A stretch of DNA of 64,000 nucleotides from Costus lasius (lineage: Eukaryota > Streptophyta > Magnoliopsida > Zingiberales > Costaceae), in contig CM050451.1 of NCBI GenBank assembly GCA_027563935.2, positions 99,165,565 to 99,229,564 of the forward strand, given 5' to 3'. The translations under genes and the position numbers were made by a program. Below, piece by piece: positions 31,601 to 57,567 of this stretch. The notes beneath the pieces are model-generated. The model was given only the letters and a program-made list of their open reading frames with translations, made no database searches and had not been told where the DNA came from. How positions within the stretch are numbered: position 1 is the stretch's first letter; each line of letters opens with the position of its first letter.

Positions 31601-34286
31601 ATTCCTGAAATGCATGCTGTTAAAGCATGGCTAAGGAAATGTTTCCAGATGAAAGATCTAGGAGAAGCAGCCTATGTATTAGGTGTGAAGATCTACAGGG
31701 ATAGATCTAAGAGGCTTCTCGGGCTGTGCCTGTTGGGGTATGCCCTTAAGGCTAATGTTTGAGGCCTTGGGATTGTATGAGTATCATGTAATAAACTCTT
31801 ATGTTTATAAAGGCATGGTTATTATTCAGGTTGTTACCTTGTCTGCTGTAATAAGTGTACTTCTGAATAATGTCTCAAAGCTGTTCAGCTAGGCTGACAT
31901 GCATATGTCCTTAGTCGAGATATCTTGGTGAACATGAGACAGCCTTGATATGATTGAGACTAATATGTGTGCTAATCTTATAGGATGCTTCGAGCATGGA
32001 ATAAGATGTAGACTCATGGGTACATTGGATGTACTGGACAGACCCTACTAGGATATTCAATTGCTTGTCACAATGTGAATAATCCTTGTAAGCACCAAGT
32101 GGCACATGTCCTTTGACTTGAGATCACTTGTGTTTCTAAATGATGAATGTCATTATTTTGAGGTAGTTCAATATCATTTGAAACATAGTGATTATAGACT
32201 ATCTTGGATAATGATCATGAGTCAGGTTAGGACACTAGTGATAGATAAAGGATTGCCGTCTCCTTGTTCAAGGAGTGTGATGTTCTAAAGGGCCCCCCTG
32301 TATGAGATGATTGAGATAGTGTATGGCCATACCCAGATGACTATGTTCATCTGATCTAATCATGCTCATCGTATTGGAGTTACAGGCTTGACATGCTTGT
32401 CCAATAAGAACATCCAGTGGCAAAGGAAACATGTATGCCTTGTGAAGTGGATTCACACTTGTGCTGTGGTTTGGGTATAGTCTTGGAAGACTCTTTCCTT
32501 TATATCGGGAGACAGTGATGTGTTGCTAGATACCCCTCACTGATCGTGATAACGTGAGTTGTCGTTACCGACATTTAAAGGAAACCCTTAGGGTCGCACA
32601 ATTTGGTGATATGACTTACTTGAGTCAGATCGGGTGGACTGGATTGTTTTGATTCAGTTTAAAGGAGTTTAAACTCTGATTGTAAGTGAGATCCAGTCTG
32701 ATCATGTTTGATTGATTAGGGCTTGAGATCGGTAAGCTTCGATCGAGAGTGTGGATGCTGGATCGAAGAGATCAAGAGCATCAAAAGATGAACGGTCAGA
32801 TTTTGAACCTTAGGGTTTAATTTGGTCTGAACCGATTCTTGGGCTGATTTGGTTTGGTCATTGGACCAATTAAATTGAACCGGCTCAAATGTGAGCGCTT
32901 GGTTCATTTGAGAGGAGAGCTAAGCGTTTGGTTCACTTCATGTGAACGCATAACGCATGCTTTGAAGACTTGCCAATTTTGGCATGTCGGTTTGGCAAAT
33001 GTGATGAATGTTGACACATTTCGATCACAAGGTTTTGCGAACGCTCATCTCCTCTTTGCTCTTGACGAGACACACATCCTTCGGTGGTGTATGTTGACGA
33101 GGAGAAGCATCGGCCAAGAGAGACTTCATCATCTCCTTCCATTCGACAAGGAAGCTTGGGTGCCTTGCTAGCACAAGTGACGCCAAGCAAGTAAGAGATC
33201 TTCACCTTGTGTGTGAACTATTGGAGGAGATCAAAGTTGCTCTCTTCTTCCAAGCCGATATCCAACTTCATGGCGTTGGTATGATCCCTTTAAAGATCCT
33301 TTCGCTTATACATAAGTTAACCATATGATCTACATGCGGTCTTGAGGGTGACACCCCTTAAACTAGCACATGCGCCGCCCCCTTTAGGGTTTCACCCTTT
33401 GCGCCCCCCTCTTGAAAGGGGTTTTATCCGCTTGCGCTCCCTCTTGAAGGGGACCCAACAGTGCCAGAGTACTTACATTGATAAAGTTCTGGAGAGATTT
33501 CATTTAGAGAATTCTAAACGTGGATATCTTCCAGTCAGACATGGTCTGAATCTTTCGAAGAGTCAGTGTCCGCAAACACAGACTGAGAAAGATGAAATGG
33601 ACAATACGCCTTATGCTTCGGCTATTGGGTCCATTATGTATGCGATGTTGTGTACTCGCCCAGACGTCGCTTACGGGTTAAGCGTGACCAGTCGGTTCCA
33701 AAGTAATCCAGGTATGGCGCACTGGATTGCGGTCAAGAACATTTTAAAATATCTGCGGAGGACCAAAGATATGTTCTTGATATATGGTGGTCAGGAAGAA
33801 CTCAGTATAGAAGGATATACTGACGCTTCGTTCCAGTCGGACCAGGATGATTTCCGATCGCAATCAGGCTATGTTTTTAGCTTGAATGGAGGAGCGGTGG
33901 TGTGGAAGAGTTTCAAACAGTCAACTGTTGCTGATTCCACAACAGAAGCCGAGTATGTTGCAGCCTCGGAAGCATCCAAGGAGGCAGTGTGGATTCGTAA
34001 GTTCGTGAGAGAACTTGGTGTTGTTCCTTCGAGTGTCGATCCTTTGGTTATCTTCTGTGATAACACTGGAGCAATCGCACAAGCAAAGGAACCACGGTCG
34101 CACCAGAAGTCCAAGCACATACAGAGACGGTTTCACTTGATCCGGGAGATCATTGATCGGGGCGAGATCAAAATCTGCAAGGTTCATACAGATGACAATC
34201 TGGCTGACCCGCTTACCAAGCCTCTAGCGCAGCAGAAGCATGAGAAGCACTGTAATAATATGGGTTTGAGCTTTCTCAACCATTAG
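28667..34286 (+). pseudogene. gag-pol: Gag-Pol of A3: six stop codons and an LTR insertion
   Basis: This is the decayed Copia polyprotein gene. After removing LTR s2 and one target duplicate the frame is 1295 codons including the stop, exactly as in A5, so there is no net frameshift. Stops are at 29018 (TAG for Gln), 30518 (TGA for Arg), 30827 (TAA for Gln), 30932 (TGA for Arg), 30935 (TAG for Gln) and 31457 (TGA for Trp). LTR s2 then splits the RT gene at 31731-33460, about 50 codons after the YVDD motif. The RNase H part at 33461-34286 is open. An open frame that seems to start at 33342 is only read-in from s2. This copy cannot make its own enzymes. Confidence 0.94.
31731..33460 (+). repeat. 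LTR s2: solo LTR in the RT gene of A3
   Basis: This 1730-bp LTR runs from TGTTGGGG to CCAACA and is flanked by the exact duplication GTGCC (31726-31730, 33461-33465). No internal region is present, so it is a solo LTR, as expected from recombination between the two LTRs of a former full element. The LTR hairpin is at 32548-32563 (GTGA loop). The donor motif follows the ATG near 33270. It is closely related to s1. Confidence 0.95.
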
Positions 34287-37500: not shown

Positions 37501-39485
37501 GGTTAGGTGCGGGGCACAGTAACGCAGACATACGGGTGCATTGGATGCACTGGAGTGATCCACCGTGAGGATTGACTTGTCTAGTCAACAGGTCAATCTC
37601 ACATGCAAGAGGTTTGCATTGATCCGTAGACTTGAGGAATTCATGTCTAGATTTGATGATGGGTATGTTTTGATATAGTCTTACGTCTCTCCGTAATTGG
37701 GAGACCAAAACGATTGTCATTGGGCATGTCATAAGTCACGTAGAGACGTGGATGACCAATAGTAGGATTTGCCCCTTCCTTATTGGAAGCATGATATCCA
37801 CTCGGGGGTGCCCCACCTTACTGGTGCATGACAGGAATGTGTGGCCACACTAGTTGAGTCATGACCAATCCATTGGATTGATAAACTTGAGACTAATCCA
37901 ATGGCAGGATATCAGTTTAGGCAAAGGGATCTATAATGCAATGGGAATCCTCGTTGCTTGTTAGGAGTTGTTGCCATAATGACTTAAGTCCTATGACATG
38001 GGTAGTAGTGATGTGTTTCTAGATACCCCTCACTACTTATGATGTTTACATCATTCGTCATATGGATCCTACGGGGTCACACGCAATAGATTCTTGACGT
38101 TGCTTTAATCAGAAGCCTTAGGATCAAGTTATTGGATAACTTGGATCCATTTGGAAGATTTCATCAGCGCCAATGGGCCTGATGAGTTGGAAGAAGGTTT
38201 TTGGAGCCAAACTTCATTTTTGGTAGGTTGACCCAAAATTGACCTAGATTGGTCACATTTGGATTAGGGTTGCATTGGATTAGATCCAATAGCTTAATCA
38301 ACTCATGCCATGAAGTTTGGGCTAGCTCATTATCCAATGAGGCCCAATATTAGTTGTCATGAAGAAGGAATTGGCTTAAAAGGGTATAATGGGGAGAAAT
38401 CTTACCCCATTGGCGCCTAGGGGCATAATGGGGTGAGGGAGGCACCTTTGCTTCATTATGGAAGTAAAGGGTGCCTAGCCCCTCTTCCTTGGATGGAATA
38501 CTTGCCTCTAAGGCAAGTCTTGGGGCTGATATGGCTTGAGAACTTTTATGGGAAGTTCCTAGGCGCATATGGATATAGGGAAGAGGTATATGGTAATGTC
38601 TTGGAGACTTACCTTACCTCAAACCCTAATTTCTCCGAAGACACCACCCTAGCCGAATTCCTCTTGCATGTTGCGCCTAGCCCTTCTCCTTGGATGGAAA
38701 GAATGCCTCTAAGGCATGTCTTGGGCTGATATGGCCATTGGGCAAATTAGGATAGGTTGAATGAGGTTTATGGTAAAGTCTTGGAGACTTTCCTTACCTC
38801 AAGACTCCTTTATCCTAGCCGCCCACTTGGCATGATCCTAGCCATTGCCCTAGCCGCCCCTTGTCCTATTAATAGGACCCATGCCGCCCCCTCTTTGAGG
38901 TTGATTTGTGTGGACAACATCTTGGAGGGGTGACATATCTCTTGGAGAGACTTGGAGTGCAAGGGGCGGGAGCAACATAGGCTTAGCGCAATCTTCTTCC
39001 TTGGAGCCGCAAGTTCTTCCTCTCCCTCTCTTCTTGGCGCAAGGACTCTTAGTGCTTGGTGGCATCTCCTTGCCACAAGCTCTCTCCCTTCCTTGGCCAT
39101 AGGCGCACCTTGCTTGAGGTGGCGCAAGCAAAGAAGAAGAAGGAAGCAACTTGGCGGCATCATCTTCCTCCTCATCTCTTCTTGGCGCTTTCATCTTGGA
39201 GGTGGCGCAAGAGAAGGCTTGATTCTCTTCCCAAGGCTAGCACCAAGCGTGGAAGGGAGCAACGATCAAGAAGTCGATGCGTGGATACTTGTAGTGGGTG
39301 AGCACTTGATCGTCTTCAACTTGGCACCTTCATCCTGACACGCAATAGAGGTACTAACCCTAACACATCCTTGTTTTCTCTCTCTCGCATGGATCCTTGG
39401 GAAAGGAATGTGTTTCGGGTGTAATGCTTCTTCCACTGCGTCCTGGGACTGCAAAATTTAAAATTACACCCGGCATTCCCCAACA
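37501..39485 (+). repeat. C 5' LTR (its beginning is off-window)
   Basis: This is the 3' 1985 bp of a long LTR that ends CCCCAACA next to a primer-binding site. By comparison with C2, roughly the first 200 bases lie beyond the C2/A1 insertion, off the left edge. The hairpin is at 38039-38054. An imperfect tandem duplication is at 38471-38802. The putative splice donor AG/GTAC is at 39349-39354. GC-rich open stretches at 38800-39340 on both strands look incidental. Confidence 0.85.
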
Positions 39486-40987
39486 GTGGTATCAGAGGTA
39501 CTTGCGAGAAACACAAGGTGTACGTTTGCTTGTGTGAAAAATTTTTGGAAAATCTTTCTTCTATCCATGTGCGTTTCACATAGAAAGCGTCTTTCATCCA
39601 AACTTCTTTTATCATTTTATGGCCTAAATTTGGATTGTGTTTATGATGGATTTAAGACCAAATGCGCACGTAGTTTTGTTAAGTAGGACAGGCATTGTGT
39701 CTTCGGACTGGCCGGGTCTCTTGATCTGACAAAATTGCCAGCCGATAGGGTCCATGAAATCATCATGAAACTTGATCCCAATTTTAGCATAAATTTGATT
39801 GAGAGAGTGCGTTGGATGGAGTTAGCGCATAAGGGCTAAAATTTGATTTTTCTGGATTTTCAAATTTTATATGCGCCACTTGATTGGGTTGATATGGTCA
39901 TAGCGAGTGCCCTCCTGTGTTGTGATGTGGAAGCATGTTTCCACCTGTGATGATTGCTTGTAAAATCTTTTTACCACGTACGTGTGGTTCTCCCCCTTCT
40001 TGATGTAAAAGTTTCATCTTTCCTTAGAATAGATGTAGAATTGTTTACATAATATAGGTTAAGGTTCATCAAAGACAACAAGGTGTCTTCTTCAACCGAT
40101 TTCTGAGTGGCGCTAGCTTTGGAAGCGTGGTGATGGATTTGCGGTTGGAGGAAGGGATGCTTGCTTTTGGCTTCTGGCATGGGCTGATCTGCTAAAGGGA
40201 CTCGCAACCCTTGGATGCATGATAACATGTCACATGCCTCGTGACAAGTTATATGTATGAAAAGGGCTATGACCATATCGACCAAACTAGCATGCCTGTG
40301 ATGGTTTATTATTCTGCCCATAGCATGCCTGTGATGTTCTTCCTTTGCTGCTATAACCATAGGAAAACTGCATGCTAGAAAAGAATAAAACAAACATGCA
40401 AAAACTCTCAATACAATATCAAATCGATAGCCTTCCAACGCGTAGCCCTCATCAAACTATCGATCGGTGGTGTTGTGAACTGTTTCCCACCCTCGTGGGG
40501 CACACCCACTTATCTTTAGGAGGTGTGTGGTGACAATGATTTCCCCAGTCCAGTTTTAACCTGGGCGTGCCTTCGCAAGGAAATTCGTTGGCCCTGGGCA
40601 TAACGGTTAGGACCAGACTTGACTAGTTTTTCATATGTCACTGACATGATGAATCACTAGAGGCAGCTGTTGAGAGGATAGGGTTCTGTGTTGTATCCAG
40701 CCCTCGCTGGACACAGGGCGCCTAATCTGTCTTAACTAAGAGGAATTGTGCGCAGCACAATTGGCTGGCATGCCTACCTAAGGAAGCATGGGACTCTCTA
40801 TGCATCTCAACTCACCCTCATGAGTCGCGGAGACCTCGTGTGAAATTAGGATCCTACTCACGTATTTCCAAGTTGAGTTTTGAGAGTTATCAACTCGTTA
40901 AGGAAATAGTGGAAGTATAGCATTTAATTTAAAGTCCTTGTTAGATGCTTTATCATAGTACTTATTTTGCTTGTTTGCTTATTGTAG
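39486..40987 (+). other. C leader
   Basis: This 1502-bp leader has its primer-binding site at 39487-39498, where the last base is G instead of C. A block shared with B lies at about 39681-39760 and holds a UUCG-loop hairpin and a GGCC palindrome. The three-hairpin domain is at about 40430-40850. The acceptor TAG (40985-40987) touches the gag ATG. No gene is seen. Confidence 0.8.
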
Positions 40988-41078: not shown

Positions 41079-41295
41079 TGTTGGTGTATATGCCCTAGGA
41101 CCTAGTTTTGGTCTACTCATGTACTACTTAACATTGATATTTATATATTATTCTGGCATTGTCGTTATCATTGTTTGCTTACACCTGCGATAGTGTACCT
41201 ACATGATAATGTCCCTAGAGACAGATTAGATCTGTGCTCGAACTGTAATCCCAGTCGATGTGCCTTAGTAGATATGGGACAGCTATGGTACTTGT
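41079..41295 (+). repeat. B 5' LTR, fragment 1
   Basis: These are the first 217 bases of the B LTR, starting TGTTGGTG and cut by A5. The last five bases, CTTGT, are duplicated at 50327-50331. Confidence 0.93.
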
Positions 41296-42064
41296 TGTTG
41301 GGGTATGCCCTTAAGGCTAATGTTTGAGGCCTTGGGATTGTAAAAGTATCATGTAATAAACTTTGAGGTTTATAATAAGGCATGGTTGTTATTCAGGTTG
41401 TTACCTTGTCTGCTGTAATAAGTGTACTTCTGAATAATGTCTCAAAGCTGTTCAGCTGGGCTGACATGCTCTTTGTCCTTAGTCGAGATATCTTGGTGAA
41501 CATGAGACAGCCTTGATATGATTGAGACTAATATAAGTGCTAATCTTATAGGATGCTTCGAGCATGGAATAAGATGTAGACTCATGGGTACATTGGATGT
41601 ACTGGACAGACCCTACTGGGATATTCCATTGCTTGTCACAATGTGAATGATCCTTGTAAGCAGCAAGTGGCACATGTCCTCTGACTTGAGATCACTTGTG
41701 TTTCTAAAAGATGATTGTCATTGTCTTGAGGTAGTTCAATATCATTTGAAACATAATGATTATAGACTATCTTGGATGGTGAGCTTGAATCAGGTTAGGG
41801 CACTAGTGATAGACATAGGATTGCCGTCTCCTTGTTTAAGGAGTGTGATGTTCTAAAGGGCCCCCTTTTGAGATGATTGAGGAAGTGTATGGCCATACCC
41901 AGATGACTATGTTCATCTGATCTAATCATGCTCATCGTATTGGAGTTACAGGCTTGACATGCTTGTCCAATAAGAACATCCAGTGGCAAAGGAATCATGT
42001 ATGCCTTGTGAGTTTGATTCACACTTGTGCTATGGTTTGGGAGTAGTCTTGGAAGACTCTTTCC

Positions 42065-42071
42065 TCTATAT
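42065..42071 (+). promoter_or_regulatory. Possible TATA element in the A5 LTR
   Basis: TCTATAT here, TTTATAT in most other A LTRs, sits in a block (TATATCGGGAGACAG) kept in all A copies, about 40 bases before the LTR hairpin. This would place the transcript start in the following GTGATGTGTTGCTAG segment. It is a motif guess only. Confidence 0.35.
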
Positions 42072-42113
42072 CGGGAGACAGTGATGTGTTGCTAGATACC
42101 CCTCACTGATCGT

Positions 42114-42129
42114 GATAACGTAAGTTGTC
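42114..42129 (+). other. LTR hairpin with GNRA loop
   Basis: The stem GATAAC/GTTGTC closes a GTAA loop. Other copies have GTGA, GTAA or GAAA loops, and stem changes keep pairing through G-U wobbles. B and C have unrelated but paired hairpins at the same place. It is probably an RNA element near the start of the transcript. Confidence 0.65.
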
Positions 42130-42829
42130 GTTACCGACATTTAGAGGAAACCCTTAGGGTCGCACAATTTGATGATATGGCTTTCTTGAGTCAGATCGTG
42201 TGGACTGAATTGTATGGGTTCAGTTTAAAGGATTTATACTCTGATTGCAAGTGAGATCTAGCCTGATCATGTTTGATTGATTAGGGCCTGAGATCGGTAA
42301 GCTTCGATCGAGAGAGATGATGCTAGATCGGTGAGATCAGGAGCATCAGGAGATGAACGGCTAGATCATGAGCCATTTGGTTCATAGAGGGTCTAGACCA
42401 TGCCTTGGCTTGGCTTGGTTTGAATTTGGTCTTTGGGCCAAATCGAATTGAACCAAAGCATGAACCGGTTCACTAGGTGAACGCATGGTTCATGAAGAGG
42501 GGCGTTTTGGCGTTGGAGAGTGGCTTCATGACTTTCCATTTTGGGAAGTCATGTAACGTCATTTGTCTTGATGTCGCCGAAATGCATTTGCTCTCTTCTC
42601 TTTGCGTTTTGGCTTTGAGAGCTTGCCATCTCGTGTGGAAGGAAGTGGACGAAAAGAACAAGCGCTCGGCCAAGGAAACTTCTCCATCATCCTAACATTC
42701 GATCAAGGACATCTTGCGCATCCTTGCTAGCACAAGGAGATCCAAGGAGAAGCCATCTTCTCTTGTGTGTGATTATCTTCGGAGAAGGGGCACTTGCGCC
42801 TTTGCTTCCAAAACTCCATCTAAACCGAG

Positions 42830-42838
42830 ATGGCTATG
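42830..42838 (+). other. Putative LTR mini-exon and splice donor (A5)
   Basis: The sequence ATGGCTATG is followed directly by GTATGAG at 42839. All A LTRs that reach this point keep an ATG, one codon, an NTG codon and then GTATG. Splicing to the acceptor at 44693 would join this ATG in frame to gag. See the first finding. Confidence 0.6.
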
Positions 42839-43002
42839 GTATGAGTCTCAACTTATTCAAGTTGAACATATGTTTATGCTAAGATTCTTGAAAACCTTTT
42901 GCTTCCGCTTGCAATGGTGATGCGCCACCCCCTTAAGGTTTTCGCCCCCCTCTTGAAAGGGATTTTGTTTGCTTGCGCTCCCCCATGGAAGGGGACCCTT
43001 CA

Positions 43003-44714
43003 ATTGGTATCAGAGCGCCAGTTGAAGCATAATCATATGATTGCTTGAGATACTATGTGATCCATGTTTGCGCATCAACATGTATGTTGATCTTGTTGAT
43101 TGGCGCTTGTATGTTGGTTGCGGTTATACCATGTTGTTGTTGTTTTTCTAAAATCTAAATGACATGCGCGCCCAACTAGATCTAAGATGTACCTATTGTA
43201 AACCCTTAGATGGGTTGATGGGGTTGAAAGCTTCATCTAGAATGGATCAAACTAGTCTGATCAGACCATCTGACAGCCTAGATGGGTTGACCAGATAGCA
43301 CCTGTGCGCAAGCACGAGGTGGCTATAGGTCGACTGCATCCAAGGCGTGTAGCGAGGTCTGATTGAGACAACTACTGAACACACTTGAGTTAGGCCCGGG
43401 GTCACACCCGCTTGCCAAAACTCATGAGGGTGGTTCAGCCCTTGGCGCATGCATGGTTGACCATCAGGTCAACTCGGGTCAGTTAGGACTCGGTGCATGC
43501 AAGGGCAAAGGATCTAACTAGATGGATGAGTGGATCCCCATCAATGGACCATTGTAAGGTTGTAGGGCTCATAAGGAAATTAAATTGATGCCATGGGGTT
43601 TTTTTCAAAAATTTAATTTCTTGAATGGATCACATGTTGATTGAACCATATGCTTGTTTATTTAGTCTTATGTGGGTTGCCCAATTGTGTGCTGTGCTGG
43701 GGCCTGCGTGCCTGGATTTAAAAATTGTAAATTAATTTGTGATCTGCAAATGACATTGTACTTAATTTATAATATGTTGTTGACCTGCGAGTCAACCTTG
43801 TCTAGATAGATCAAATGTATTTTGATTAGACAAGAGCACAAAGGCACACATCCCAAAGGGGCATTCAGCTGGTGGCGCACCTGAGGTGCTCTTGGCGCTA
43901 GGGCCCTAGGTTGGACCAGATGAGATGCCATGGAGCTCAAGTGAAGACTTAAGTAAAATTAAGGTCTTACTAGGGTTCATGGGCTTTTACCACATAAGAT
44001 CATGCTTTCTACTTATTGCTAATAATTAGAATTGCATGTTTTATGTTTATCTTCTGCTATAGCCATAGGACATGCCTGATAGTAAGAAGATAAAAGACCG
44101 TTAAAATCCAACGCTAATATATCAAGCTCGTAAGCCTTCTGACGCGAAACCTCACCTTTCTGATTATCGTTGGAGCCGTGTTGAACCCACTCAGTGGGCA
44201 CGTCCATCTATCTTCAGACGGTGCTGGATTTCACCTGCGTGTTACAGAGTTGGGATTTATCCCCTCTCGTTGCTCAGCATAGCACGTGGTGGTCCAGGGA
44301 GTAGGTCAGGTCAGCTTGACCATGTAGACTACATATGTGGCGCATATGGTAGCACATGGAGGCAGCCATCTCTGGGATCAGAGACTGTGTTGTACCAACT
44401 CAGTTGGCACAGTCTGCTGGATTGCCAAGATGAAGGGGAATCGCACGGGTTGGCGATTGGCTGGGACAGCCTACCAGAAACTAGTGCTTGTCATCTCTGT
44501 GCATCTTATCTCGCCTGAGCGGGACGCGGAGACCAAGTATGAAATCTGGATCCCATCTCACTAAAAGAGTGTTACTCTTTCGGACTGTTTACTGGATTTT
44601 TCAGTCAGACAAAATAGTGAGAAAAGAATCTTTCTTAAGTCCTGGATTGATTCTGAACATTGATACTGACCTTGTTGTTCTTGCTTGTTGTAGATTCCTG
44701 CAGCAACGAACACC
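43003..44714 (+). other. A5 leader / putative intron
   Basis: This 1712-bp leader starts with the primer-binding site (43005-43016). A GCAA-loop hairpin is at 43299-43321. The three leader hairpins are at 44186-44198, 44395-44407 and 44510-44523. A pyrimidine-rich tract and TAG at 44691-44693 form the putative acceptor. The following 21 bases are open in the gag frame. No protein gene is seen. Confidence 0.85.
43005..43016 (+). other. Primer-binding site of A5
   Basis: TGGTATCAGAGC lies two bases after the LTR end and is complementary to the 3' end of initiator Met tRNA. Confidence 0.93.
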
Positions 44715-47700
44715 ATGAGCTTCAATGTGCGATCCCTACTGGAAAGGGAGAAGTTTGCTGGGCCGAACTTCTCTGACTGGTTCGGACACCTTAAGATTGT
44801 TCTTAAGGCAGAGAGGAAACTGTATGTCCTCGAGACGGCGATACCGCCGCAGCCCGCTCCGAACGCCGCAAGGGCGGTTCGGGATGCCTACGAAAAGCAC
44901 GTCAATGATAGCATTGATGTCGCTTGCCTGATGCTAGCGTCTATGACGCCACCGCTGCAGCGTCAGCATGAGGATATGTCGGCTATAGAAATTATAGCGA
45001 ACCTCAAGATGTTGTATGCTGCACAGGCGAGGACTGAGCGCTATAATCTGACGAAGCTCTTCTTTCAGAGCAAACTGGCTGAGGGGAGCCCAGTGGGAGC
45101 TCACGTGCTCAAGATGATTGGGCACAAGGAGGCTCTGGAGAAACTGGGGCATACCATCAACCAGGAGCTTGCTGTGGATATTATTCTGCAGTCTCTCCCG
45201 CCTTCTTTCGATGCGTTCATTATTAACTTTAATATGAACAAGATCGATTGTACGCCGGCAGAGCTGCTGAATATGCTCTTGACCACTGAGGAAACACTGA
45301 AGGGTAAGCCTTCAACCTCTGTCTTGATGGTTCCTTCAAGGAACAAGAAGAAGGGGAAGAAGGGCAAGGCCCCTGTCAAGAATTACAGCAAGGCCCTGAA
45401 ACAGAAGGTAAAGCGGTCGAAGGATAACAGGTGTTTCCACTGTGGCCAGCTGGGTCACTGGAAAAAGGACTGTAAAGCGCTCCAAGGAGATAAGAGGGGA
45501 AGCATTGCTTCTGGCTCAGGTATATACGTGACGGAAGTCATGGTTTCATCTTCTTCTATATCATGGGTGTTGGACACTGCATGTGGAGTTCACATTTGTT
45601 CAAATGTGCAGGAACTCAAGAGAAGAAGGCAGGTGGGGCAGCATGAGGTAGACCTACGAGTTGGAAACGGGGCACGGGTTGCTGCTGTTGCTGTGGGAGA
45701 CTATTTCATTACTTTACCATCTGGCATTGTATTAGAATTAAACAATTGTTATTTTGTACCCAGTATTACCAAGAATATTATCTCTATTCCTGCTCTTGTC
45801 AGGAAAGGATTTGCCTTTGAATGCAATATTTCAAAGTGTGTTTTATCTCATGATAATATTGTGTATGCGACTGGTTCAATTAACAATGGGTTGTACATGT
45901 TGGACATGGAAAATTCTATACAAAACATTGATAATAAGAAAGCCAAGTATGCTGATAACAGCACCTTGCTATGGCATAGTCGTTTAGGCCATATAAACGA
46001 GAAGCGCATTAAGCGGTTGCATGAACATGGACTGCTGGGATCATTCTCCTATGGGGAGATTGATACATGCAAAGCTTGTTTGATGGGTAAAATGACGAAG
46101 TCACCTTTTTCAAACAAAGGTCAAAGGACTTCAGGTTTACTGGACCTTATACACAGTGATGTGTGTGGGCCTTTTGATAAACATGCCAGAGGTGGCTATC
46201 AGTACTTCATTACCTTTACTGATGATTTCAGTAGGTATGGATATGTCTATTTAATGAGACATAAAAGTGAATCTTTTGACAAGTTCAAAGAGTTCAAAAA
46301 TGAAGTACAAAATCAGTTAGGCCGAAATATCAAGGCACTTCGCTCTGATCGAGGTGGTGAATACCTGAGTCATGCATTTACTGACTATCTGAAGGAGTGT
46401 GGGATTATCTCACAGCTCACTCCGCCAGGAACACCGCAATGGAATGGTGTGTCCGAGAGGAGAAATAGAACGCTACTTGATATGGTTCGTTCTATGATGA
46501 GTCAGGCCACTCTTCCATACTCCTTTTGGGGTTTTGCACAGGAAACAGCTGCAAAGGTACTAAACCGAGTGCCATCCAAGGCAGTTTCAAATACGCCATA
46601 TGAGTTATGGTATGGCAAACAGCCTAGCTTGACATTTATCAGGATCTGGGGTTGCGAGGCTTATGTCAAAAAGCTCGCCTCTGGGAAACTAGAGAGTAGA
46701 TCTGAGAAATGTATCTTTGTTGGTTACCCTAAGGAAACTAAGGGTTATTATTTCTACGATCCCAAAGAGAACAAGGTTTTTGTTGCTCGGACGGCCATAT
46801 TTCTTGAGAAGGAGTTTCTTCTGCAAGAGGCCAGTGGGAGAGAAATAAAGCTGGATGAGATTCCAGAGGAAGGACAAAGTAGTCAAGCAGAGTTGGATGT
46901 GCCTGAGCCAGTAGATCAGGTTACTGAACAACCTGAGGCTCAGATATCACGGGAACCGCGAAGATCGGGGAGGATCCGTCGACAGCCTGAGCGCTATGAC
47001 GGAGTCTACATCATTGATAATGATGAACCCCTAACTTATGCGGATGCGGTCAGTGGACCGGAGTCAGCTAGATGGCTTGAAGCTATGCGAGCCGAGATGG
47101 ACTCCATGTCAGATAACCAGGTCTGGGATTTGGTTGATCCGCCTCCGGGAGTAATCCCTATAGGCTGTAAATGGATCTTCAAGAAGAAGATTGACATGGA
47201 TGGTAACGTAGTTACCTATAAAGGCAGGCTAGTTGCGAAAGGTTTCAAACAAATCTACGGGATAGATTATGATGAAACTTTCTCACCTGTAGCCATGTTT
47301 AAGTCTATTCGGATTCTTTTTGCGATAGCAGCATATTACGACTATGAGATCTGGCAAATGGATGTGAAGACAGCTTTCCTTAATGGAAATCTGGATGAGG
47401 ATGTGTATATGACACAACCGGAAGGTTTCACTAATCCATCAGATCGTCATAAAATATGCAAGTTAAAGAAGTCCCTTTATGGACTTAAACAAGCATCAAG
47501 AAGCTGGAATATTCGTTTTGATGAATCAATCTCTGAGTTTGGTTTCATCAAGAACGAGGATGACCCGTGTGTATATAAGAGGTTTAGTGGGAGCGTAATT
47601 ACATTCCTAATCCTCTACGTCGATGATATCTTAATCATTGGAAATGATATTCCTGAACTGCATGCTGTTAAGGCATGGTTAGGAAAATGTTTCCAGATGA

Positions 47701-48599
47701 AAGATCTAGGAGAAGCAGCCTATGTATTAGGTGTGAAGATCTACCGGGATAGATCTAAGAGGCTTCTCGGGCTGTGCCAGAGTACTTACATCGATAAGGT
47801 CCTGGAGAGATTCCATTTAGAGAATTCTAAACGTGGATATCTTCCAGTCAGACATGGTCTGAATCTTTCGAAGAGTCAGTGTCCACAAACACAGACTGAG
47901 AAAGATGAAATGGACAAAACGCCTTATGCTTCGGCTATTGGGTCCATTATGTATGCGATGCTGTGTACTCGCCCAGACGTCGCTTACGGGTTAAGCGTGA
48001 CCAGTCGATTCCAAAGTAATCCAGGATTGGCGCACTGGATTGGGGTCAAGAACATTTTAAAATATCTGCGGAGGACCAAAGATATGTTCTTGATATATGG
48101 TGGTCAGGAAGAACTCAGTATAGAGGGATATACTGACGCTTCGTTCCAGTCGGACCAGGATGATTTCCGATCGCAATCAGGCTATGTTTTTAGCTTGAAT
48201 GGTGGAGCAATGGTGTGGAAAAGCTTCAAACAGTCAACTGTTGCTGATTCCACAACAGAAGCCGAGTATGTTGCAGCCTCGGAAGCATCCAAGGAGGCAG
48301 TGTGGATTCGTAAGTTCGTGAGAGAACTTGGTGTCGTTCCTTCGAGTGCTGATCCTTTGGTTATCTTCTGTGATAACACTGGAGCAATTGCACAAGCAAA
48401 GGAACCACGGTCGCACCAGAAGTCCAAGCACATACAGAGACGGTTTCACTTGATCCGGGAGATCATTGATCGAGGCGAGATCAAAATATGCAAGGTTCAT
48501 ACAGATGACAATCTGGCAGACCCGCTTACCAAGCCTCTGGCGCAGCAGAAGCATGAGAAGCACTGTAATAATATGGGTTTGAGGTTTCTCAACCATTAG
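44715..48599 (+). CDS. gag-pol: Intact Gag-Pol polyprotein of A5 (1294 residues)
   Basis: This is the complete Ty1/Copia polyprotein. Gag (about 1-235) forms the particle and ends in a lysine-rich tract. A CCHC knuckle (C240, C243, H248, C253) should bind RNA. Protease has D287 in DTAC, where the usual motif is D-S/T-G. Integrase has the zinc residues H421, H426, C452 and C455, the triad D482, D545 and E581 (35 residues between the last two), and a GKGY-like tail at about 667-682. RT runs from about 805 with KTAFLNG at 885-891 and YVDD at 968-971. RNase H spans about 1138-1270, with candidate acidic residues D1141, E1182 and D1220. It ends in LNH before a TAG. Gag and Pol share one frame with no frameshift site. 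This start matches all copies; a longer, spliced start is possible. It lies between a leader and a polypurine tract in a full element, and is probably translated from LTR-driven RNA. Confidence 0.97.
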   Translation: MSFNVRSLLEREKFAGPNFSDWFGHLKIVLKAERKLYVLETAIPPQPAPNAARAVRDAYEKHVNDSIDVACLMLASMTPPLQRQHEDMSAIEIIANLKMLYAAQARTERYNLTKLFFQSKLAEGSPVGAHVLKMIGHKEALEKLGHTINQELAVDIILQSLPPSFDAFIINFNMNKIDCTPAELLNMLLTTEETLKGKPSTSVLMVPSRNKKKGKKGKAPVKNYSKALKQKVKRSKDNRCFHCGQLGHWKKDCKALQGDKRGSIASGSGIYVTEVMVSSSSISWVLDTACGVHICSNVQELKRRRQVGQHEVDLRVGNGARVAAVAVGDYFITLPSGIVLELNNCYFVPSITKNIISIPALVRKGFAFECNISKCVLSHDNIVYATGSINNGLYMLDMENSIQNIDNKKAKYADNSTLLWHSRLGHINEKRIKRLHEHGLLGSFSYGEIDTCKACLMGKMTKSPFSNKGQRTSGLLDLIHSDVCGPFDKHARGGYQYFITFTDDFSRYGYVYLMRHKSESFDKFKEFKNEVQNQLGRNIKALRSDRGGEYLSHAFTDYLKECGIISQLTPPGTPQWNGVSERRNRTLLDMVRSMMSQATLPYSFWGFAQETAAKVLNRVPSKAVSNTPYELWYGKQPSLTFIRIWGCEAYVKKLASGKLESRSEKCIFVGYPKETKGYYFYDPKENKVFVARTAIFLEKEFLLQEASGREIKLDEIPEEGQSSQAELDVPEPVDQVTEQPEAQISREPRRSGRIRRQPERYDGVYIIDNDEPLTYADAVSGPESARWLEAMRAEMDSMSDNQVWDLVDPPPGVIPIGCKWIFKKKIDMDGNVVTYKGRLVAKGFKQIYGIDYDETFSPVAMFKSIRILFAIAAYYDYEIWQMDVKTAFLNGNLDEDVYMTQPEGFTNPSDRHKICKLKKSLYGLKQASRSWNIRFDESISEFGFIKNEDDPCVYKRFSGSVITFLILYVDDILIIGNDIPELHAVKAWLGKCFQMKDLGEAAYVLGVKIYRDRSKRLLGLCQSTYIDKVLERFHLENSKRGYLPVRHGLNLSKSQCPQTQTEKDEMDKTPYASAIGSIMYAMLCTRPDVAYGLSVTSRFQSNPGLAHWIGVKNILKYLRRTKDMFLIYGGQEELSIEGYTDASFQSDQDDFRSQSGYVFSLNGGAMVWKSFKQSTVADSTTEAEYVAASEASKEAVWIRKFVRELGVVPSSADPLVIFCDNTGAIAQAKEPRSHQKSKHIQRRFHLIREIIDRGEIKICKVHTDDNLADPLTKPLAQQKHEKHCNNMGLRFLNH

Positions 48600-48602
48600 A
48601 TT

Positions 48603-48619
48603 AAGTGCAAGTGGGAGAT
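48603..48619 (+). other. A5 polypurine tract
   Basis: AAGTGCAAGTGGGAGAT, four bases after the gag-pol stop and directly before the 3' LTR. It primes plus-strand synthesis. Confidence 0.88.
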
Positions 48620-50326
48620 TGTTGGGGTATGCCCTTAAGGCTAATGTTTGAGGCCTTGGGATTGTAAAAGTATCATGTAATAAACTTTGAGGTTTATAAT
48701 AAGGCATGGTTGTTATTCAGGTTGTTACCTTGTCTGCTGTAATAAGTGTACTTCTGAATAATGTCTCAAAGCTGTTCAGCTGGGCTGACATGCTCTTTGT
48801 CCTTAGTCGAGATATCTTGGTGAACATGAGACAGCCTTGATATGATTGAGACTAATATAAGTGCTAATCTTATAGGATGCTTCGAGTATGGAATAAGATG
48901 TAGACTCATGGGTACATTGGATGTACTGGACAGACCCTACTGGGATATTCCATTGCTTGTCACAATGTGAATGATCCTTGTAAGCAGCAAGTGGCACATG
49001 TCCTCTGACTTGAGATCACTTGTGTTTCTAAATGATGATTGTCATTGTCTTGAGGTAGTTCAATATCATTTGAAACATAATGATTATAGACTATCTTGGA
49101 TGGTGAGCTTGAATCAGGTTAGGGCACTAGTGATAAACATAGGATTGCCGTCTCCTTGTTTAAGGAGTGTGATGTTCTAAAGGGCCCCCTTTTGAGATGA
49201 TTGAGGAAGTGTATGGCCATACCCAGATGACTATGTTCATCTGATCTAATCATGCTCATCGTATTGGAGTTACAGGCTTGACATGCTTGTCCAATAAGAA
49301 CATCCAGTGGCAAAGGAATCATGTATGCCTTGTGAGTTTGATTCACACTTGTGCTATGGTTTGGGAGTAGTCTTGGAAGACTCTTTCCTCTATATCGGGA
49401 GACAGTGATGTGTTGCTAGATACCCCTCACTGATCGTGATAACGTAAGTTGTCGTTACCGACATTTAGAGGAAACCCTTAGGGTCGCACAATTTGATGAT
49501 ATGGCTTTCTTGAGTCAGATCGTGTGGACTGAATTGTATGGGTTCAGTTTAAAGGATTTATACTCTGATTGCAAGTGAGATCTAGCCTGATCATGTTTGA
49601 TTGATTAGGGCCTGAGATCGGTAAGCTTCGATCGAGAGAGATGATGCTAGATCGGTGAGATCAGGAGCATCAGGAGATGAACGGCTAGATCATGAGCCAT
49701 TTGGTTCATAGAGGGTCTAGACCATGCCTTGGCTTGGCTTGGTTTGAATTTGGTCTTTGGGCCAAATCGAATTGAACCAAAGCATGAACCGGTTCACTAG
49801 GTGAACGCATGGTTCATGAAGAGGGGCGTTTTGGCGTTGGAGAGTGGCTTCATGACTTTCCATTTTGGGAAGTCATGTAACGTCATTTGTCTTGATGTCG
49901 CCGAAATGCATTTGCTCTCTTCTCTTTGCGTTTTGGCTTTGAGAGCTTGCCATCTCGTGTGGAAGGAAGTGGACGAAAAGAACAAGCGCTCGGCCAAGGA
50001 AACTTCTCCATCATCCTAACATTCGATCAAGGACATCTTGCGCATCCTTGCTAGCACAAGGAGATCCAAGGAGAAGCCATCTTCTCTTGTGTGTGATTAT
50101 CTTCGGAGAAGGGGCACTTGCGCCTTTGCTTCCAAAACTCCATCTAAACCGAGATGGCTATGGTATGAGTCTCAACTTATTCAAGTTGAACATATGTTTA
50201 TGCTAAGATTCTTGAAAACCTTTTGCTTCCGCTTGCAATGGTGATGCGCCACCCCCTTAAGGTTTTCGCCCCCCTCTTGAAAGGGATTTTGTTTGCTTGC
50301 GCTCCCCCATGGAAGGGGACCCTTCA
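48620..50326 (+). repeat. A5 3' LTR
   Basis: This 1707-bp LTR differs from the 5' LTR at about three positions by eye and is followed by the target duplicate CTTGT. Confidence 0.96.
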
Positions 50327-52026
50327 CTTGTGAGACTGATATGTGGGCTGGTTAAGCACGTGGTGCTAACACAGACACATGGGTATATCATGGAGGATAT
50401 ACAGGATAGACCCGCTATGAGGCTATGACTTTGTGTCATGAGTTATCCTCATAAGTGACAGGAGATGCATTGATCTTTTGACTTGAGGTCATTGATCATT
50501 CTATATGGTTAGGGACTTGCTTTGATGCAACCTAACACCTCATCGTAGTTGGGAGGTCATAACGGTTGTTATTGAGCATGTCACGACCAGTATAAGAAGG
50601 TCAATGGACAGACATAGGATTTGCCCCTTCCTTAGGGAAGTTTGATATCCATGGAGCTCCCTATGGTTCTATGACTGAGAGTATATGGCCGTACCCAGGT
50701 GAGAACCTGTTTTTTAGTCATAGCCATGTGATTGGATGAAAACAAGTGGTGACACACTTGACCAATCGGATATCAGTTCGGCAAAGAGACTGAAATGCAT
50801 CTGTACCTAGTTGCGATGATGGGGATGTCGATGTCGATATCCATTCCAATGACCTGGGTAGCAGCGATGCACTGCTAGGTGCCACTCACTGCTTGTGATG
50901 ACCTTTGGTCAGCACTGCCAGCATCAGAGGAACCTACAGGGTCGCACACCTTGATACTTGAGTTCTCGTATTGATCGGGAAGCCTTATGATCGAGTTATT
51001 GGATAACTCGGATCTAATTGGGAGATTTCATCACCGCCAATGGGCCTGATGAGATGAAAGAATGTTATTGGAGCCAAACTTCATTTTTGGCAGGTTGACC
51101 CGTATTTGACCATGGTTGGTCACATTTGGATTAGGGTTTCATTGGATTGGATCCAAGTGCTTAATTAACCCATGCAATGAAGCTTGGGCTAGCTCATTAT
51201 CCAATGAGGCCCAATAACAAGTTCTCATGAAGAGGAGAAAGGCTAAAAGGGTATAATGGGGTTAAAACTTCTCCCCTAGCCGCCTATGGGCATAATGGGG
51301 AGAAGTGGCACAATTTGCTCTACATGGAAGTAATTGGCGCCTCCCCCCTTTAACCCTTATGGAATGCATGCCTCTATGGCATGTTTGAGGCACAAGGCAA
51401 GGCCTTGGCGCACAAGGAAGGGCGTGGAAGAATATGGAAGGGTTGAATGAGAATTATGGAAATGTCTTGGAGACTTTCCTTATCTCAAACCTCCTCATCC
51501 TAGCCCTACACTTGTCATGATCCTAACCTTTGCTCCAACCGCCTATTGCCCTATATAAGTGACCCTTGTCGCCTCTTCTAAAATGTAATCAATTCTTGGA
51601 GGCGTGATAAAAGAAAAGGGGCGAGAGCTAAGGGCAAAGGCAACTTCTTGCGAGAGCTTGGAGCAAGGGCGACTTCTTCTCCTTCTTCATACCCGCAAGC
51701 TTCTTCATCCTATTCTCTTGGCGCAACTTTTCACCTTGGTGGCGCAAGAGAAGTGAGGCATCTCCCTTTGGCTAGCACCGAGCGTGGAAGAAGAGAACTC
51801 AAGAGATCCGTGTGTGCGAGACTGCAGAGGGCGCACACTTGGACGCCTACATCGGCATCGCTCCGCATTGCTCTTAAGGTATTTCCTAACTCATCATGTC
51901 GACTCCCTTGCATGCGATCTTCACTGGGTTTTTGGGACCGGCCTGTTTCGGGGACATTCTTCCGCTGTGCAAAATGTGTATCCATAACTCTGAAAAATTG
52001 TAAAATGTCCCCGGGGTTTCCCAACA
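50327..52026 (+). repeat. B 5' LTR, fragment 2
   Basis: This is the rest of the B LTR after A5, ending CCCAACA. Together the pieces make about 1912 bp. The B-type hairpin TGACC-TTT-GGTCA is at 50899-50911. The putative donor AAG/GTATTT has its GT at 51879. Confidence 0.93.
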
Positions 52027-53625
52027 GTGGTATCAGAGCGACTTGCAAGACTCGAACGATGTTTTATGCTTTCCTTCCATGCTCACATGCCATATCTCTA
52101 TTTTCGTAAATAGCATGATGCATGGCAAACAATTTTTCTAAATTAGAAAAATTAGGGTTTCTTGTTTCTGTCATCCTCTCAATCTCTTTTGGATTTTTGG
52201 ACTATTTTTCTTATTTGATTTAAAGATCAAAGGCGCATGTAATTTTGTCAAGTAGGACGGGCATTGTGTCTTCGGACTGGCCAAGTCTCTTGATCTGACA
52301 AAATTGCCAGCCGAAAGGATCTCTGAAATCATCATGAAAAATAAATCGCAATAAACCAAAGGATTTGTGAGAAGAAGATGAGAAAAAGAGACTAGCTTTA
52401 TGAAAAAAGTAAAATTTCAGATTTTATGTTTTTCATGAGCATGTAGAATCGCATGAGTAAATACCTTGATTGTGCATGATGTTGTGATCATTAGTCAAGC
52501 CTCTCCCCTTTGCATGCCTGTGATGTATCAATGTTAGGCCTGCGTGCCGCTTTTCTCTTTTCTTTTTTTTTTTTTTTAAAAAAAAGGGGGAAGATTAGGG
52601 TGGCGCACATGTTCATAGCTTGGCGCATGAATATTGGGTGCGCACCTTGGATGGTGGCGCAACAAACAAGAGACGCAAGCTTGGTGGGGCGTGTCTTCCT
52701 TGGAGAAAGTCCATGGCATTGGCCGAACCTTTGGGGCCTGCCCCTAGGGTTTGTGAGCTAAACCATGAGAGAAAGGACTTTGGAGCCAACCTTGATGTTC
52801 AAGCTAGAGGTCGGCTAGGCTAGGTCTAGTTTTGGGGCTTGAGTTCTAGGACAAGAGTTGAACCTATTTCATGGCATGAATTGGTTCAATGTCTTGTATA
52901 GGATATGATCACATCATCTTTACTGCTTTCATTTAGCATGCCTGAAATGTTTTATCTTTATGCTATCACTATAGGACTGCATGCCTGTATTGCTAGACAT
53001 AAGATAAAATTGATGAGACCTTAAAAACCCTCAATTAAAATATCAAGTCTGGTAGCCTTCTAACGCGTAGCCCTCACTAAGCTATCGATCAGTGGAGTTG
53101 TGAACTGTTTCCCACCCTCGTGGGACACACCCACTTATCTTTAGAAAGTGCGTGGTGGCAATGGTTTCCCCAGTCCAGTTTTAACCTGGGCGTGCCTTCG
53201 CAAGGAAACTCGTTGGCCCTGGGCATAACGGTTAGGGATGGACTTGACTAGAAGTTCACATGTGCTGGGCACATGGTGAAAGTCTAGCGGCATCATTGAG
53301 AGGTAAGGGTTTCATGTTGTATCCAGCCCTCGCTGGACATGAAATGCCTGGACTGTCTCAATAAGGGGAATTGCTTGGAGCAATCGGCCGGCGTGCCCAC
53401 CTTAGGAAACATGAGTTACTTTGTGCATCTCATCCCACCCTCGTGGGACGTGAAGCCTCATGTGAAATAAGGATCCCATCTCACTAGGAAGTCTTAAACT
53501 TCCTGATTGACTTTGTGGTTTGTCAATTCGATTTTAAAATAGTGAGAGCTATGATCATTTAAAACAAGTCCAGTTTAAATGATTCAAAGTAGTACTAATC
53601 TGTTTTTCTTGGGTGTTGTAGAACA
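52027..53625 (+). other. B leader
   Basis: This 1599-bp leader has its primer-binding site TGGTATCAGAGC at 52028-52039. A block shared with C lies at about 52250-52320. A T16A8 homopolymer is at 52562-52585. The three-hairpin domain is at about 53050-53460. A TACTAAT branch-site-like motif is at 53593-53599, with TAG at 53619-53621 four bases before the ATG. No gene is seen. Confidence 0.82.
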
Positions 53626-56600
53626 ATGGCTACTAACACTAGCGGATTATCACTGCGATCCTTCCTTGAAAAGGACAAGTTAGTCGGAACTAACTTTATG
53701 GACTGGCATCGGAACTTGAGGATAGTCCTCAAACTCGAGAAGAAGCTGTATGTCCTTGAACAAGCTCTTCCTGCGGCTCCTCCGCCTAATGCCCGAACGG
53801 CAGATAGAGATGCTTATAGGAAGCATCAAGATGACTCTTTGGAGGTCACAAGTCTTATGCTAGCCAGCATGGCACCTGAACTGCAGGTGCAATATGAGGA
53901 GCAGAATGCTTTTCAGATGATCACTCATCTGAAACAGATGTTCGAAGCTCAGGCTAGGACAGAAAGATTTGATACCGCCAAAGCAGTTTTTCGGTGTAAG
54001 TTGTCTGAGGGTGCACCAGTGAGACCCCACGTTCTCAAACTCATTGGGAATGTGGATCATCTCAGGAGACTGGGACATACCATAGACAATGAGCTGGTTG
54101 TGGATCTTATTCTGCATTCCCTGCCCCCTAGCTTCAGTCCGTTTATTATTAATTTCAATATGAACCGGATTGAATGCACACGGGAGGAATTGATGAATAT
54201 GCTCCAAACAGCCGAGCGAGAGATGGGCAAGATCAAACCCAATTCTGTTCTTTTGGTCCCTGCGACCAAGAAGATAAAGAAGAAGGGCAAGGCACGTGCT
54301 AAGGGCAGTGCCAAGGGTCCCATCAAAACACTGAAGAAAAAGGCGAAGAGGTCAAAGGATTAGAGATGTTTCCATTGTGGCGAGCAGGGTCACTGGAGAA
54401 GGGACTGCAGGCAACTTCAGAGTGAGGACAAGAAAGGCTTGGCCTTAACTTCTAACTCAGGTATTTATGTTACTGAAGTCAATCTTTCTACTTCTATGTC
54501 ATGGGTATTGGATACCGCATGTGGAGCTCATATTTGTACAAATATGCAGGGGCTCAAGAAAAGTAGATCGGTGCGGCCTGGGGAAGTTGACCTACGCGTT
54601 GGAAATGGGGCACAGGTTGCCGCTATTACTGTAGGCGCTTTGACTCTCTCCTTGCCTTCCGGACTTCAACTGGAACTAGATAATTGCTTTTATGTACCTT
54701 CGCTGACAAAGAACATTGTATCCATTCCTTGCTTAGCAAGGAAAGGATTTATATTTGAAATAAATAAGAACTCTTGTTCTTTTTCATTTGCAAGTGTGTT
54801 CTATGGGAAGGGTACTTTATGCAATGGTCTATATATCTTGGATATGGAAAGTTCAATCTATAACATAAGCAATAAGAGGACCAAACTGAGTGGTTCAGTT
54901 GGTGCTTTCCTATGGCATTGTTGATTAGCCCATATAAACAGGAATCGCATCCAACAACTCCATGCAAATGGATTATTGGATTCAAGTTCCTTGGAGGAAT
55001 TTGATACTTGTGAACCCTGTTTGTTAGGGAAAATGACAAAGGCACCCTTCACCAAGATTGGTGAGAGGGCAAAAGGTTTATTGGATCTCATACATACTAA
55101 TGTGTGTGGACCATTCAATAAACAAGCCAGAGGAGGGAACAGCTACTTCATTACCTTCACTGATGACTTCAGTAGGTATGGTTATGTCTACTTGATGAGA
55201 CATAAATCTGAATCCTTTGAGAAATTCAAGGAGTTCAAGAATGAAGTAGAGAACCAGCTTGGAAGATCCATTAAAGCTCTTCGATCAGATCGAGGTGGAG
55301 AATACCTGAGTGGTGAGTTCTTTGACTATCTGAGAGAGTGTGGGATCATATCCCAACTCACTCCTCCTGGAACACCTCAATGGAATGGTGTGTCTGAAAG
55401 GAGAAATTGAACTTTATTGGATATGGTTCGATCTATGATGAGTCATGCAACTCTACCTTCTTCATTCTGGGGGCATGCACTAGAAACAGCTTCTCTGATA
55501 CTGAATAATGTTCCATCTAAGAGCGTCTCCAAAATACCATACGAGGTGTGGAGTGGGAGACGCCCTAATCTCTCTTTTATCAAGATCTGGGGATGTGAGG
55601 CCTATGTCAAACGTCAGGATTCTAGCAAGCTAGAACCTAGATCTGATAAGTGTGTGTTTGTGGGGTATCCTAAGGAAACTAAAGGATACTACTTCTATGT
55701 CCCAACTGAGAACAAAGTTTTTGTTGCTCGGGGTGCTGTCTTTCTAGAGAAAGAATTTCTTATGAAAGAAGTTAGTGGGAGGAAGTTTGACTTGGATAAG
55801 GTCCAAGTGCAAACACAAGACAAAGAGATGGAGTCTGAGCCACCTGCACCAGTTGCTAGGCAACCTGAGGCTCAGACACAGGTCCCACGTAGGTCTGGGA
55901 GAATTCGTCGTGCACCTGAAAGGTATGGGTCCCTATCGACCCAACACGATGGGATCTTCATCATTGAGGATGAACCTAGAACCTATGATGAGGCGGTCAG
56001 TGGACCGGACTCCGAGAGATGGCTTGATGCCATGCGATCCGAGATGGATTCCATGTCAGCTAACCAAGTCTGGGATTTAGTTGAGCTACCTGATGGGGTA
56101 AAACCCATAGGGTGTAAATGGGTCTTCAAAAGGAAGACGGACATGGATGGCAATATAGTTACCTATAAGGGTAGACTAGTGGCTAAAGGATTTAAACAAG
56201 TCCATGGTGTGGACTATGATGAAACCTTCTCGCCAGTTGCCATGTTCAAATCCATTCGGATTCTGCTTGCTATAGCTGCATATCATGATTATGAGATATG
56301 GCAGATGGATGTAAAGACAGCGTTCCTTAATGGGAAGCTGACTGAGGATGTATATATGTCACAACCTGATGGGTTCATCCATCCTGCAGAGACTAACAAA
56401 GTCTGCAGGCTAAAGAGATCCATTTATGGATTAAAGCAAGCATCTCGAAGTTGGAATCTTCGATTTGATGAAGCTGTAAGAGATTATGGTTTTATCAAGA
56501 GTGAGGATGACGTCTGTGTATACAGAAAATTCAGTGGGAGTTTGGTGATTTTTCTGGTCTTGTATGTTGATGACATACTACTCATCGGAAACGACATCCC

Positions 56601-57546: not shown

Positions 57547-57550
57547 GTCT

Positions 57551-57567
57551 TAGTGCAAGTGGGAGAT
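57551..57567 (+). other. B polypurine tract
   Basis: TAGTGCAAGTGGGAGAT directly precedes the 3' LTR. It is almost the same as in family A although the LTRs differ. Confidence 0.85.

Follow-up and report, generated by a model that had tools for sequence, protein, structure and literature searches.

A putative leader intron in a plant Ty1/copia family that would join a start codon in the long terminal repeat to gag

How one retroelement RNA can act both as messenger and as template for reverse transcription is a standing question, and it is raised by a 64,000-nt stretch of Costus lasius DNA (contig CM050451.1; the window), which is a nest of plant Ty1/copia elements. In one family of this nest, family A, an ATG near the end of the long terminal repeat (LTR) is followed after two further codons by a splice-donor sequence, and an acceptor lies shortly ahead of gag. 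Judging from these and the other sequence features described below, it is quite likely that family A elements carry a leader intron, that the spliced RNA, freed of the primer-binding site (PBS), is the Gag-Pol mRNA and the unspliced RNA the genome, and that the family A start codon lies in the LTR. Positions are those of the window and refer to the plus strand unless the minus strand is named; the evidence from other species consists of proteins.

Several features identify family A as copia-like. The gag piece of element A5 matched Retrotran_gag_2 (E 4e-16) and zf-CCHC (E 1.5e-6), as a copia-type gag with a CCHC knuckle would, and its pol piece matched SH3_retrovirus and then RVT_2 (E 5e-73), placing integrase before reverse transcriptase; the A1 piece gave gag, zf-CCHC, gag_pre-integrs, rve and SH3_retrovirus. 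The LTRs are about 1.7 kb long with TG..CA ends, 5-bp target duplications flank A2, A3, A4 and A5, and the PBS, TGGTATCAGAGC, is of tRNA type, a combination typical of copia elements. A5 is a young element, since its LTRs (41295-43006 and 48619-50330) are 99.8% identical and its gag-pol is one frame of 1294 codons. As delimited from the LTR pair, ends and flanks, its 5' LTR (TGTTGG...TTCA, target duplication CTTGT) occupies 41296..43002; the single-frame gag-pol open reading frame (ORF), counted from an internal ATG, occupies 44715..48599, with matches to Retrotran_gag_2, zf-CCHC, SH3_retrovirus and RVT_2 in the pieces scanned; and the 3' LTR occupies 48620..50326.

An earlier note on this DNA had proposed that every family A LTR reaching this point keeps an ATG, one codon, an NTG codon and a donor, and had placed six donors at 7653, 17586, 42839 and 61614 on the plus strand and 5685 and 26600 on the minus strand; all six are at those positions. 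Scanning with the pattern ATG-G[C/T]N-NTG-GTAT returned 13 copies in the window, all at one LTR site: both LTRs of A1 (the 3' one cut by the window start after GTAT), A2, A3, A4 and A5, the 5' LTR of A8, one solo LTR and the duplicated end of the A1 LTR. The ATG, NTG and GTAT are retained in all 13, the fifth donor base is G in all 12 copies that reach it, and the second codon encodes Ala (GCT or GCG) in 12 of the 13, the A1 5' LTR alone having GTT (Val) and its duplicate GCT. With the looser pattern ATGNNNNTGGTATG the window gives 12 matches, as many as there are uncut copies, and no loss of the ATG or the GT was found among the LTR copies in the window that reach the site. In A5 the coding end of the putative exon 1, ATG GCT ATG (Met-Ala-Met), lies at 42830..42838, the donor GTATG at 42839..42843, and the block is repeated at 50154-50162 in the 3' LTR. 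The corresponding nine bases lie at 7644..7652 in A2 (3' LTR copy 15056-15064), 17577..17585 in A3 (35842-35850), 26601..26609 on the minus strand in A4 (19208-19216), and 61605..61613 in A8 (ATG GCG TTG). The A1 5' LTR has them at 5686..5694 (ATG GTT ATG) and its cut 3' LTR at 5..13 (ATG GCG TTG GTAT), both on the minus strand; they are intact in the solo LTR (33270..33278, in an LTR of about 31731-33460) and in the A1 LTR-end duplicate, with GCT (58883..58891, minus strand).

This retention stands out from its surroundings, which had been described as highly variable between copies. When the 13 rows are reduced to seven lineages by leaving out four second LTRs, the duplicate and the cut copy, the last ~350 bp of the LTR have a mean pairwise identity of only 0.48 counting gaps, and 11 of the 14 columns of the exon and donor block are invariant, a level reached anywhere in 12 of 20000 column shuffles.

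The acceptor side is equally regular. In all six A copies (A1, A2, A3, A4, A5 and A8) TTGTAG ends 21 nt ahead of the gag ATG, and a splice from the LTR donor would be in phase 0 and join the LTR ATG through seven open codons to gag, adding ten residues, just as the earlier note had it. The seven codons read IPAATNT (IPTATNT in A3). The acceptor TAG is itself an in-frame stop immediately before them, so that they lie beyond any unspliced in-frame reading from upstream. In A5 this TAG is at 44691..44693 and the seven-codon extension at 44694..44714; exon 2 would begin at 9595 in A2, 28646 in A3 (whose leader is interrupted by the nested element A4), 63571 in A8 and, on the minus strand, 24680 in A4 and 3734 in A1. 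Among 21 TTGTAG sites in the window, eight are followed by 60 open codons, and six of these eight are the A acceptors. Branch-like sequences, which the earlier note had pointed out in A8 and B, are CTGAC or CTAAC 28-29 nt before exon 2 in the five A copies scored (A5, CTGAC, 44666..44670, 28 nt); A3 reads CTTAC. Family A has, in short, the conserved donor and acceptor with an open phase 0 frame that a leader intron would need. No copy in which the donor or the frame is damaged, which the earlier note had named as evidence against its proposal, was found among the 13 LTR ends and six acceptors of the window.

The predicted A5 intron (42839..44693, 1855 nt) contains 50 ATGs and, 166 nt inside it, the PBS (43005..43016), which we take to be of the initiator-Met tRNA type. 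Across five A copies and the related family B, the leaders hold 49-55 ATGs each and the PBS lies 137-166 nt past the donor. With so many ATGs in the leader, the gag ATG would be out of reach of plain scanning unless the intron were removed. Upstream of the LTR ATG the picture is different: the nearest ATG is 179-257 nt away in the eight copies tested, and the A1 3' LTR has none in the 250 nt examined, compared with 42 ATGs in the 1206 nt of the upstream A5 LTR. Under each copy's own dinucleotides the probability of finding no ATG in 170 nt is 0.11-0.22, odds that apply per copy only, as the copies are related. This ATG-free stretch, together with a TATA box at 51552 in family B, suggests a long untranslated portion of exon 1: the exon is probably ~200-260 nt long, of which ~200-250 nt would be untranslated LTR and nine coding. 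The term mini-exon under which the block was first described is hence a misnomer; the block would be the nine coding bases that close a first exon of probably about 200-260 nt within the LTR. All seven elements in the window with an exact PBS (A1-A5, A8 and B) retain the intron, as would be the case if copying were confined to unspliced RNA. Folding was of no help here, as three leader folds differed from one another, that of A5 being paired end to end, and leaders of this length are too long for folds to inform.

Splice-site scoring, done in A1, A2, A4, A5, A8 and B with a weight matrix of plant frequencies, bore out the proposed donor in part: it is the top-ranked GT upstream of the PBS in five of the six copies (A1, A2, A4, A5 and B) but second of 22 in A8. 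Over the whole stretch scored, the donor ranked 1, 2, 2, 2, 5 and 2 and the acceptor between second and fourth of 115-142. Both sites are good by score and neither is unique.

Two further families in the window, B and C, show the same arrangement without the start codon. In B a leader intron is predicted at 51879..53621 (donor AAG/GTATTT, acceptor TTGTAG/AACAATGG, branch-like CTAAT at -27), and its gag, which also matches Retrotran_gag_2, starts MATNTSGLSLRS (53626..54363), with the ATG 4 nt past the acceptor. In C the candidate intron spans 39351..40987, from a possible donor GAG/GTACTA to a TTGTAG that abuts the gag ATG (MIPSPEPR; ATG ATT CCA, 0 nt past the acceptor). A MAFFT alignment of A4, A5, A8, B and C places the B and C donors in the same column as the A donor, and in each of the three families the acceptor closes with TTGTAG at the start of gag. 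Neither B nor C has an ATG at the end of exon 1; in B, an ATG at 51583 lies near the expected start, and there is no further ATG up to the donor. Because donors and acceptors stand at matching places in B and C without this ATG, the leader intron seems to predate the divergence of A, B and C, and an ATG at the donor seems to be peculiar to A. The Ala-Thr-Asn-Thr that the earlier note had recognised as common to A and B is encoded with three nucleotide differences, all at third positions and synonymous, which is a modest sign of translation, and the Ile-Pro after the C acceptor equals that of A. The likely course is that family A gained an in-frame ATG at the end of exon 1 and afterwards lost the ATG of exon 2.

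Gag proteins of other plants offer a separate view of where the A protein begins. The gag piece matched 105 proteins (34-61% identity), whose sources include Hibiscus, Gossypium, Corchorus, Arctium, Cuscuta and Sesamum. An N-terminal motif could be placed in 57 of them, the other 48, many truncated, having no pattern match. In family A this motif begins at residue 13 counted from the internal ATG and at residue 23 with the ten added residues, and in B at residue 18; in the 57 homologues it stands at residue 5 in two, 14-15 in 13, 16-23 in 37 and at least 33 in five. At least 15 residues precede it in 42 of the 57, compared with 12 in A from the internal gag ATG. In an alignment of 16 N-termini (seven from the window and nine of the 105 picked for clear N-termini), the closer relatives start upstream of the internal Met of A, mostly with MA and chiefly in the form MA..NT. 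A group outside this alignment, MANNNNNNSTMSLRS, has a Met near the internal A ATG when aligned by eye with a two-residue gap. Two homologues, P0012 and P0053, share a similar 17-residue extension ahead of MANNNNNN, perhaps an upstream coding exon or read-through. A scan of viral contigs with the A5 gag piece gave no match. Each element of the interpretation in the earlier note that the sequence could test has held, and that interpretation is supported; the ATG-free stretch, the PBS-holding intron with its many ATGs, the matching B and C splice sites and the homologous Gag N-termini that start upstream of the internal A ATG are independent lines added to it.

From these features we infer the following course of expression. 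Transcription would begin somewhere in the ATG-free 180-260 nt of the LTR that precede the LTR ATG, and splicing from the LTR donor to the acceptor near gag would remove the LTR end, the PBS and about 50 upstream ATGs. The spliced RNA would then be the mRNA for a single Gag-Pol polyprotein, with a Gag N-terminus of MA(M/L)IPAATNTM(S/N)FN, while the unspliced RNA, retaining the PBS, would be the template for replication, so that the intron would act as a switch between mRNA and genome RNA. The family A initiator, being in exon 1, would be present in both LTRs and in the solo LTR. A weak donor, such as that of A8, may suit an element that has to leave much of its RNA unspliced.

Several observations weigh against this reading. 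A higher-scoring GT exists elsewhere in the whole leader of A2, A4, A5 and B, the acceptor is only second to fourth, and the A8-type donor TTG/GTATGA is a weak one, scoring 1.75 and ranking fifth of 133 GTs. Near the expected start the eight A LTRs scanned show no TATA box; TATAAA-type matches occur only at LTR position 59-77, in six of the eight, and transcription from there would leave many ATGs ahead of the LTR ATG. In C, the donor candidate is only third-best of 30 GTs in the stretch scored, the putative exon 1 holds one ATG with a 5-codon frame, and the Ile-Pro match with A, being two codons long, may be chance and is too short to weigh much. Finally, 13 of the 57 homologues, more distant ones, are nearly as short as A read from its internal ATG (motif at 14-15 versus 13), and the A-type N-terminus was not seen among the N-termini of the 105 homologues. 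The Gag extension as an absolute requirement was rejected on account of these 13 homologues, which start nearly as short.

The same homologues lend some credit to the alternative that survives best, which we nevertheless regard as unlikely: that the leader intron is removed, yet ribosomes initiate at the internal gag ATG (MSFN), the LTR ATG being an in-frame upstream start that is tolerated without consequence and the seven codons being former coding sequence that is now 5' untranslated region. MSFNVRSLLE does resemble the short starts of more distant homologues, and the 21 nt themselves have little power to decide, as they vary little and so do the flanking intron end and gag (identity 0.976, 0.939 and 0.958, respectively, in four copies). 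If transcription starts in the ATG-free stretch, however, the LTR ATG is both first in the spliced RNA and in frame, and scanning ribosomes would meet it before the internal one. Moreover, the LTR ATG has been kept in 13 of 13 copies where its flanks have not, and the A/B differences in the four shared codons, though only three, are all synonymous.

We give a very small chance to the possibility that the block is a 4-codon upstream ORF (uORF), with TGA right after the donor-like GTA, that serves ribosome shunting on unspliced RNA as in plant pararetroviruses, its likeness to a donor being secondary or a second use. Read without splicing, the LTR ATG does open a 4-codon peptide (MAMV, MVMV or MALV) in four of the five A copies read, and in Rice tungro bacilliform virus (RTBV) the leader uORF used for shunting is described as also being spliced onto ORF IV (PMC5902531). 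In A2, however, the frame runs 55 codons before a stop, the leader to be shunted is about 1.9 kb long with some 50 ATGs, and in family B the donor at the corresponding place is not accompanied by an ATG.

The chance is fainter still that the donor-like site binds U1 and so shields the LTR RNA from premature polyadenylation, or that it serves the LTR as a DNA or RNA signal, and that it is not spliced productively to gag. The presence of the block in 3' and solo LTRs would fit such a role, and a neighbouring hairpin, even better kept, shows that other signals lie in this stretch; yet this would account neither for the ATG and the phase, nor for an acceptor that sits at the gag boundary with a frame open up to its own TAG, nor for the parallel donors and acceptors of B and C. 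Least probable is a shorter Gag transcript starting in the leader just before gag and making the LTR ATG irrelevant, for although no ATG occurs for 124-178 nt before the gag ATG in A2, A4, A5 and A8 and BARE transcripts are reported to have two start sites (PMC3735527), B has an ATG 47 nt upstream and the conserved ATG-donor block would go unexplained.

For the preferred reading, a PBS-containing leader intron with an LTR initiator, the nearest known mechanism is that of the RTBV P4 mRNA, and the nearest splicing copia elements are BARE1 and EVD, which splice elsewhere. To our knowledge RTBV has no LTR. Foamy viruses have their donor in the R region of the LTR and make Gag from unspliced RNA, and we know of no start codon supplied by their LTR exon. 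In RTBV, a short leader ORF contains a donor, and a portion of the pregenomic RNA is spliced so that this ORF is joined to one far downstream, for the expression of P4 (PMC5902531); that splicing serves P4, the ORF for the movement protein, coat protein and reverse transcriptase (MP-CP-RT) being translated from the pregenomic RNA, whereas splicing in family A would serve the whole Gag-Pol. Barley BARE1 is described as keeping separate RNA pools for translation and replication and as showing splicing in a plant Ty1/copia element, but its 104-nt intron lies at the end of gag and gives a Gag-only mRNA, the pools being split by start site and capping rather than by a PBS-holding leader intron (PMC3735527). 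In Arabidopsis the spliced RNA of the Ty1/copia element EVD/EVADE (shGAG) is reported to be favoured on ribosomes and the unspliced RNA to be nuclear (PMC8892269); its intron, however, takes out the protease domain (PMC12786077) and its splicing is coupled to early polyadenylation, and the portions of the two reports that were accessible do not mention an LTR start codon (PMC8892269, PMC12786077). Foamy viruses are likewise reported to use a spliced mRNA for a major protein, Pol, with an unspliced genome RNA (PMC7828637), and the plant Ty3/gypsy element Ogre is an LTR element with a functional intron (PMC12786077, PMC3735527), though one described as spliced between ORFs and not in the leader (PMC3735527). 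A 2025 review states that introns are generally absent from plant LTR retrotransposons, with exceptions including Ogre and EVADE (PMC12786077). In the open literature, titles and the openings of abstracts, searched with phrasing that may have been too narrow, showed neither a leader intron holding the PBS nor a start codon encoded in the LTR for any plant copia element.

Taking the families together, we lean towards the view that in a lineage of plant Ty1/copia elements a leader intron holding the PBS divides the RNA used for protein from the genome RNA, and that in one branch the Gag-Pol initiator has moved across this intron into the LTR, so that every LTR, solo ones included, would be a portable first exon with start codon and donor, possibly spliced in frame to downstream host exons. 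A PBS-holding leader intron would settle the conflict between mRNA and template by splicing, as the normal route of reverse transcription would be closed to the mRNA and the genome RNA could hardly be translated. If this is true, annotations of such families that begin gag at the first ATG of the long frame leave out the real N-terminus, and an LTR start codon with its donor may create fused host transcripts.

The hairpin in exon 1, CCUUG-CUAGCA-CAAGG (42722..42737 in A5, about 105 nt before the LTR ATG), carries the palindrome CUAG in its loop and has counterparts in the other A LTR ends as well as in B (51765-51782) and C (39230-39247). It is the best-kept block of the LTR end (14 of 14 columns invariant in the seven lineages). 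Over nine sequences of A, B and C, seven of them distinct, 91% of cells pair and three of the five pairs have changed on both sides; shuffles equalled the covariation score in 0/500, the cells paired in 0/500, the pairs changed on both sides in 22/500 and the pair types in 44/500. Compensatory changes are found in A8 and B, two of the five pairs are absent from C, and the outermost is absent from the solo LTR. Single-sequence folds gave the local hairpin in six of eight copies and a longer GCACAAG/CUUGUGU pairing in two (A4 and A8); the local form is preferred because of the covariation counts, which were made for it alone. A hairpin with a CUAG loop presumably recalls the dimer hairpins of retroviruses, a likeness that rests on few sequences.

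In A2, A4, A5 and A8, identity including gaps falls to 0.35-0.65 in a zone from ~500 bp before to 330 bp after the donor, compared with 0.89-0.90 for the LTR farther upstream and 0.94-0.98 around the acceptor and gag; the remainder of the leader has 0.56-0.88, or 0.85-0.90 when gaps are ignored. This hypervariable zone corresponds to about 42340-43170 in A5, covering the LTR end, PBS and early leader, and possibly reflects exchange of leader cassettes or an arms race with silencing.

The order of the nest at 39351-58749 can be read in part: B seems to have inserted in the gag of C near 41079, and A5 in the 5' LTR of B, with the CTTGT duplication. Segments 58749-60057 and 5551-6829 form a 94.7% identical pair that spans the A1/A2 insertion junction and was therefore probably duplicated after A2 inserted; A8 begins at 60057. 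Finally, the two LTRs of A1 (1-1552 and 5551-6105) are of different subtypes, ATGGTTATG versus ATGGCGTTG, and their flanks differ, so that A1 looks like a recombinant of two elements.

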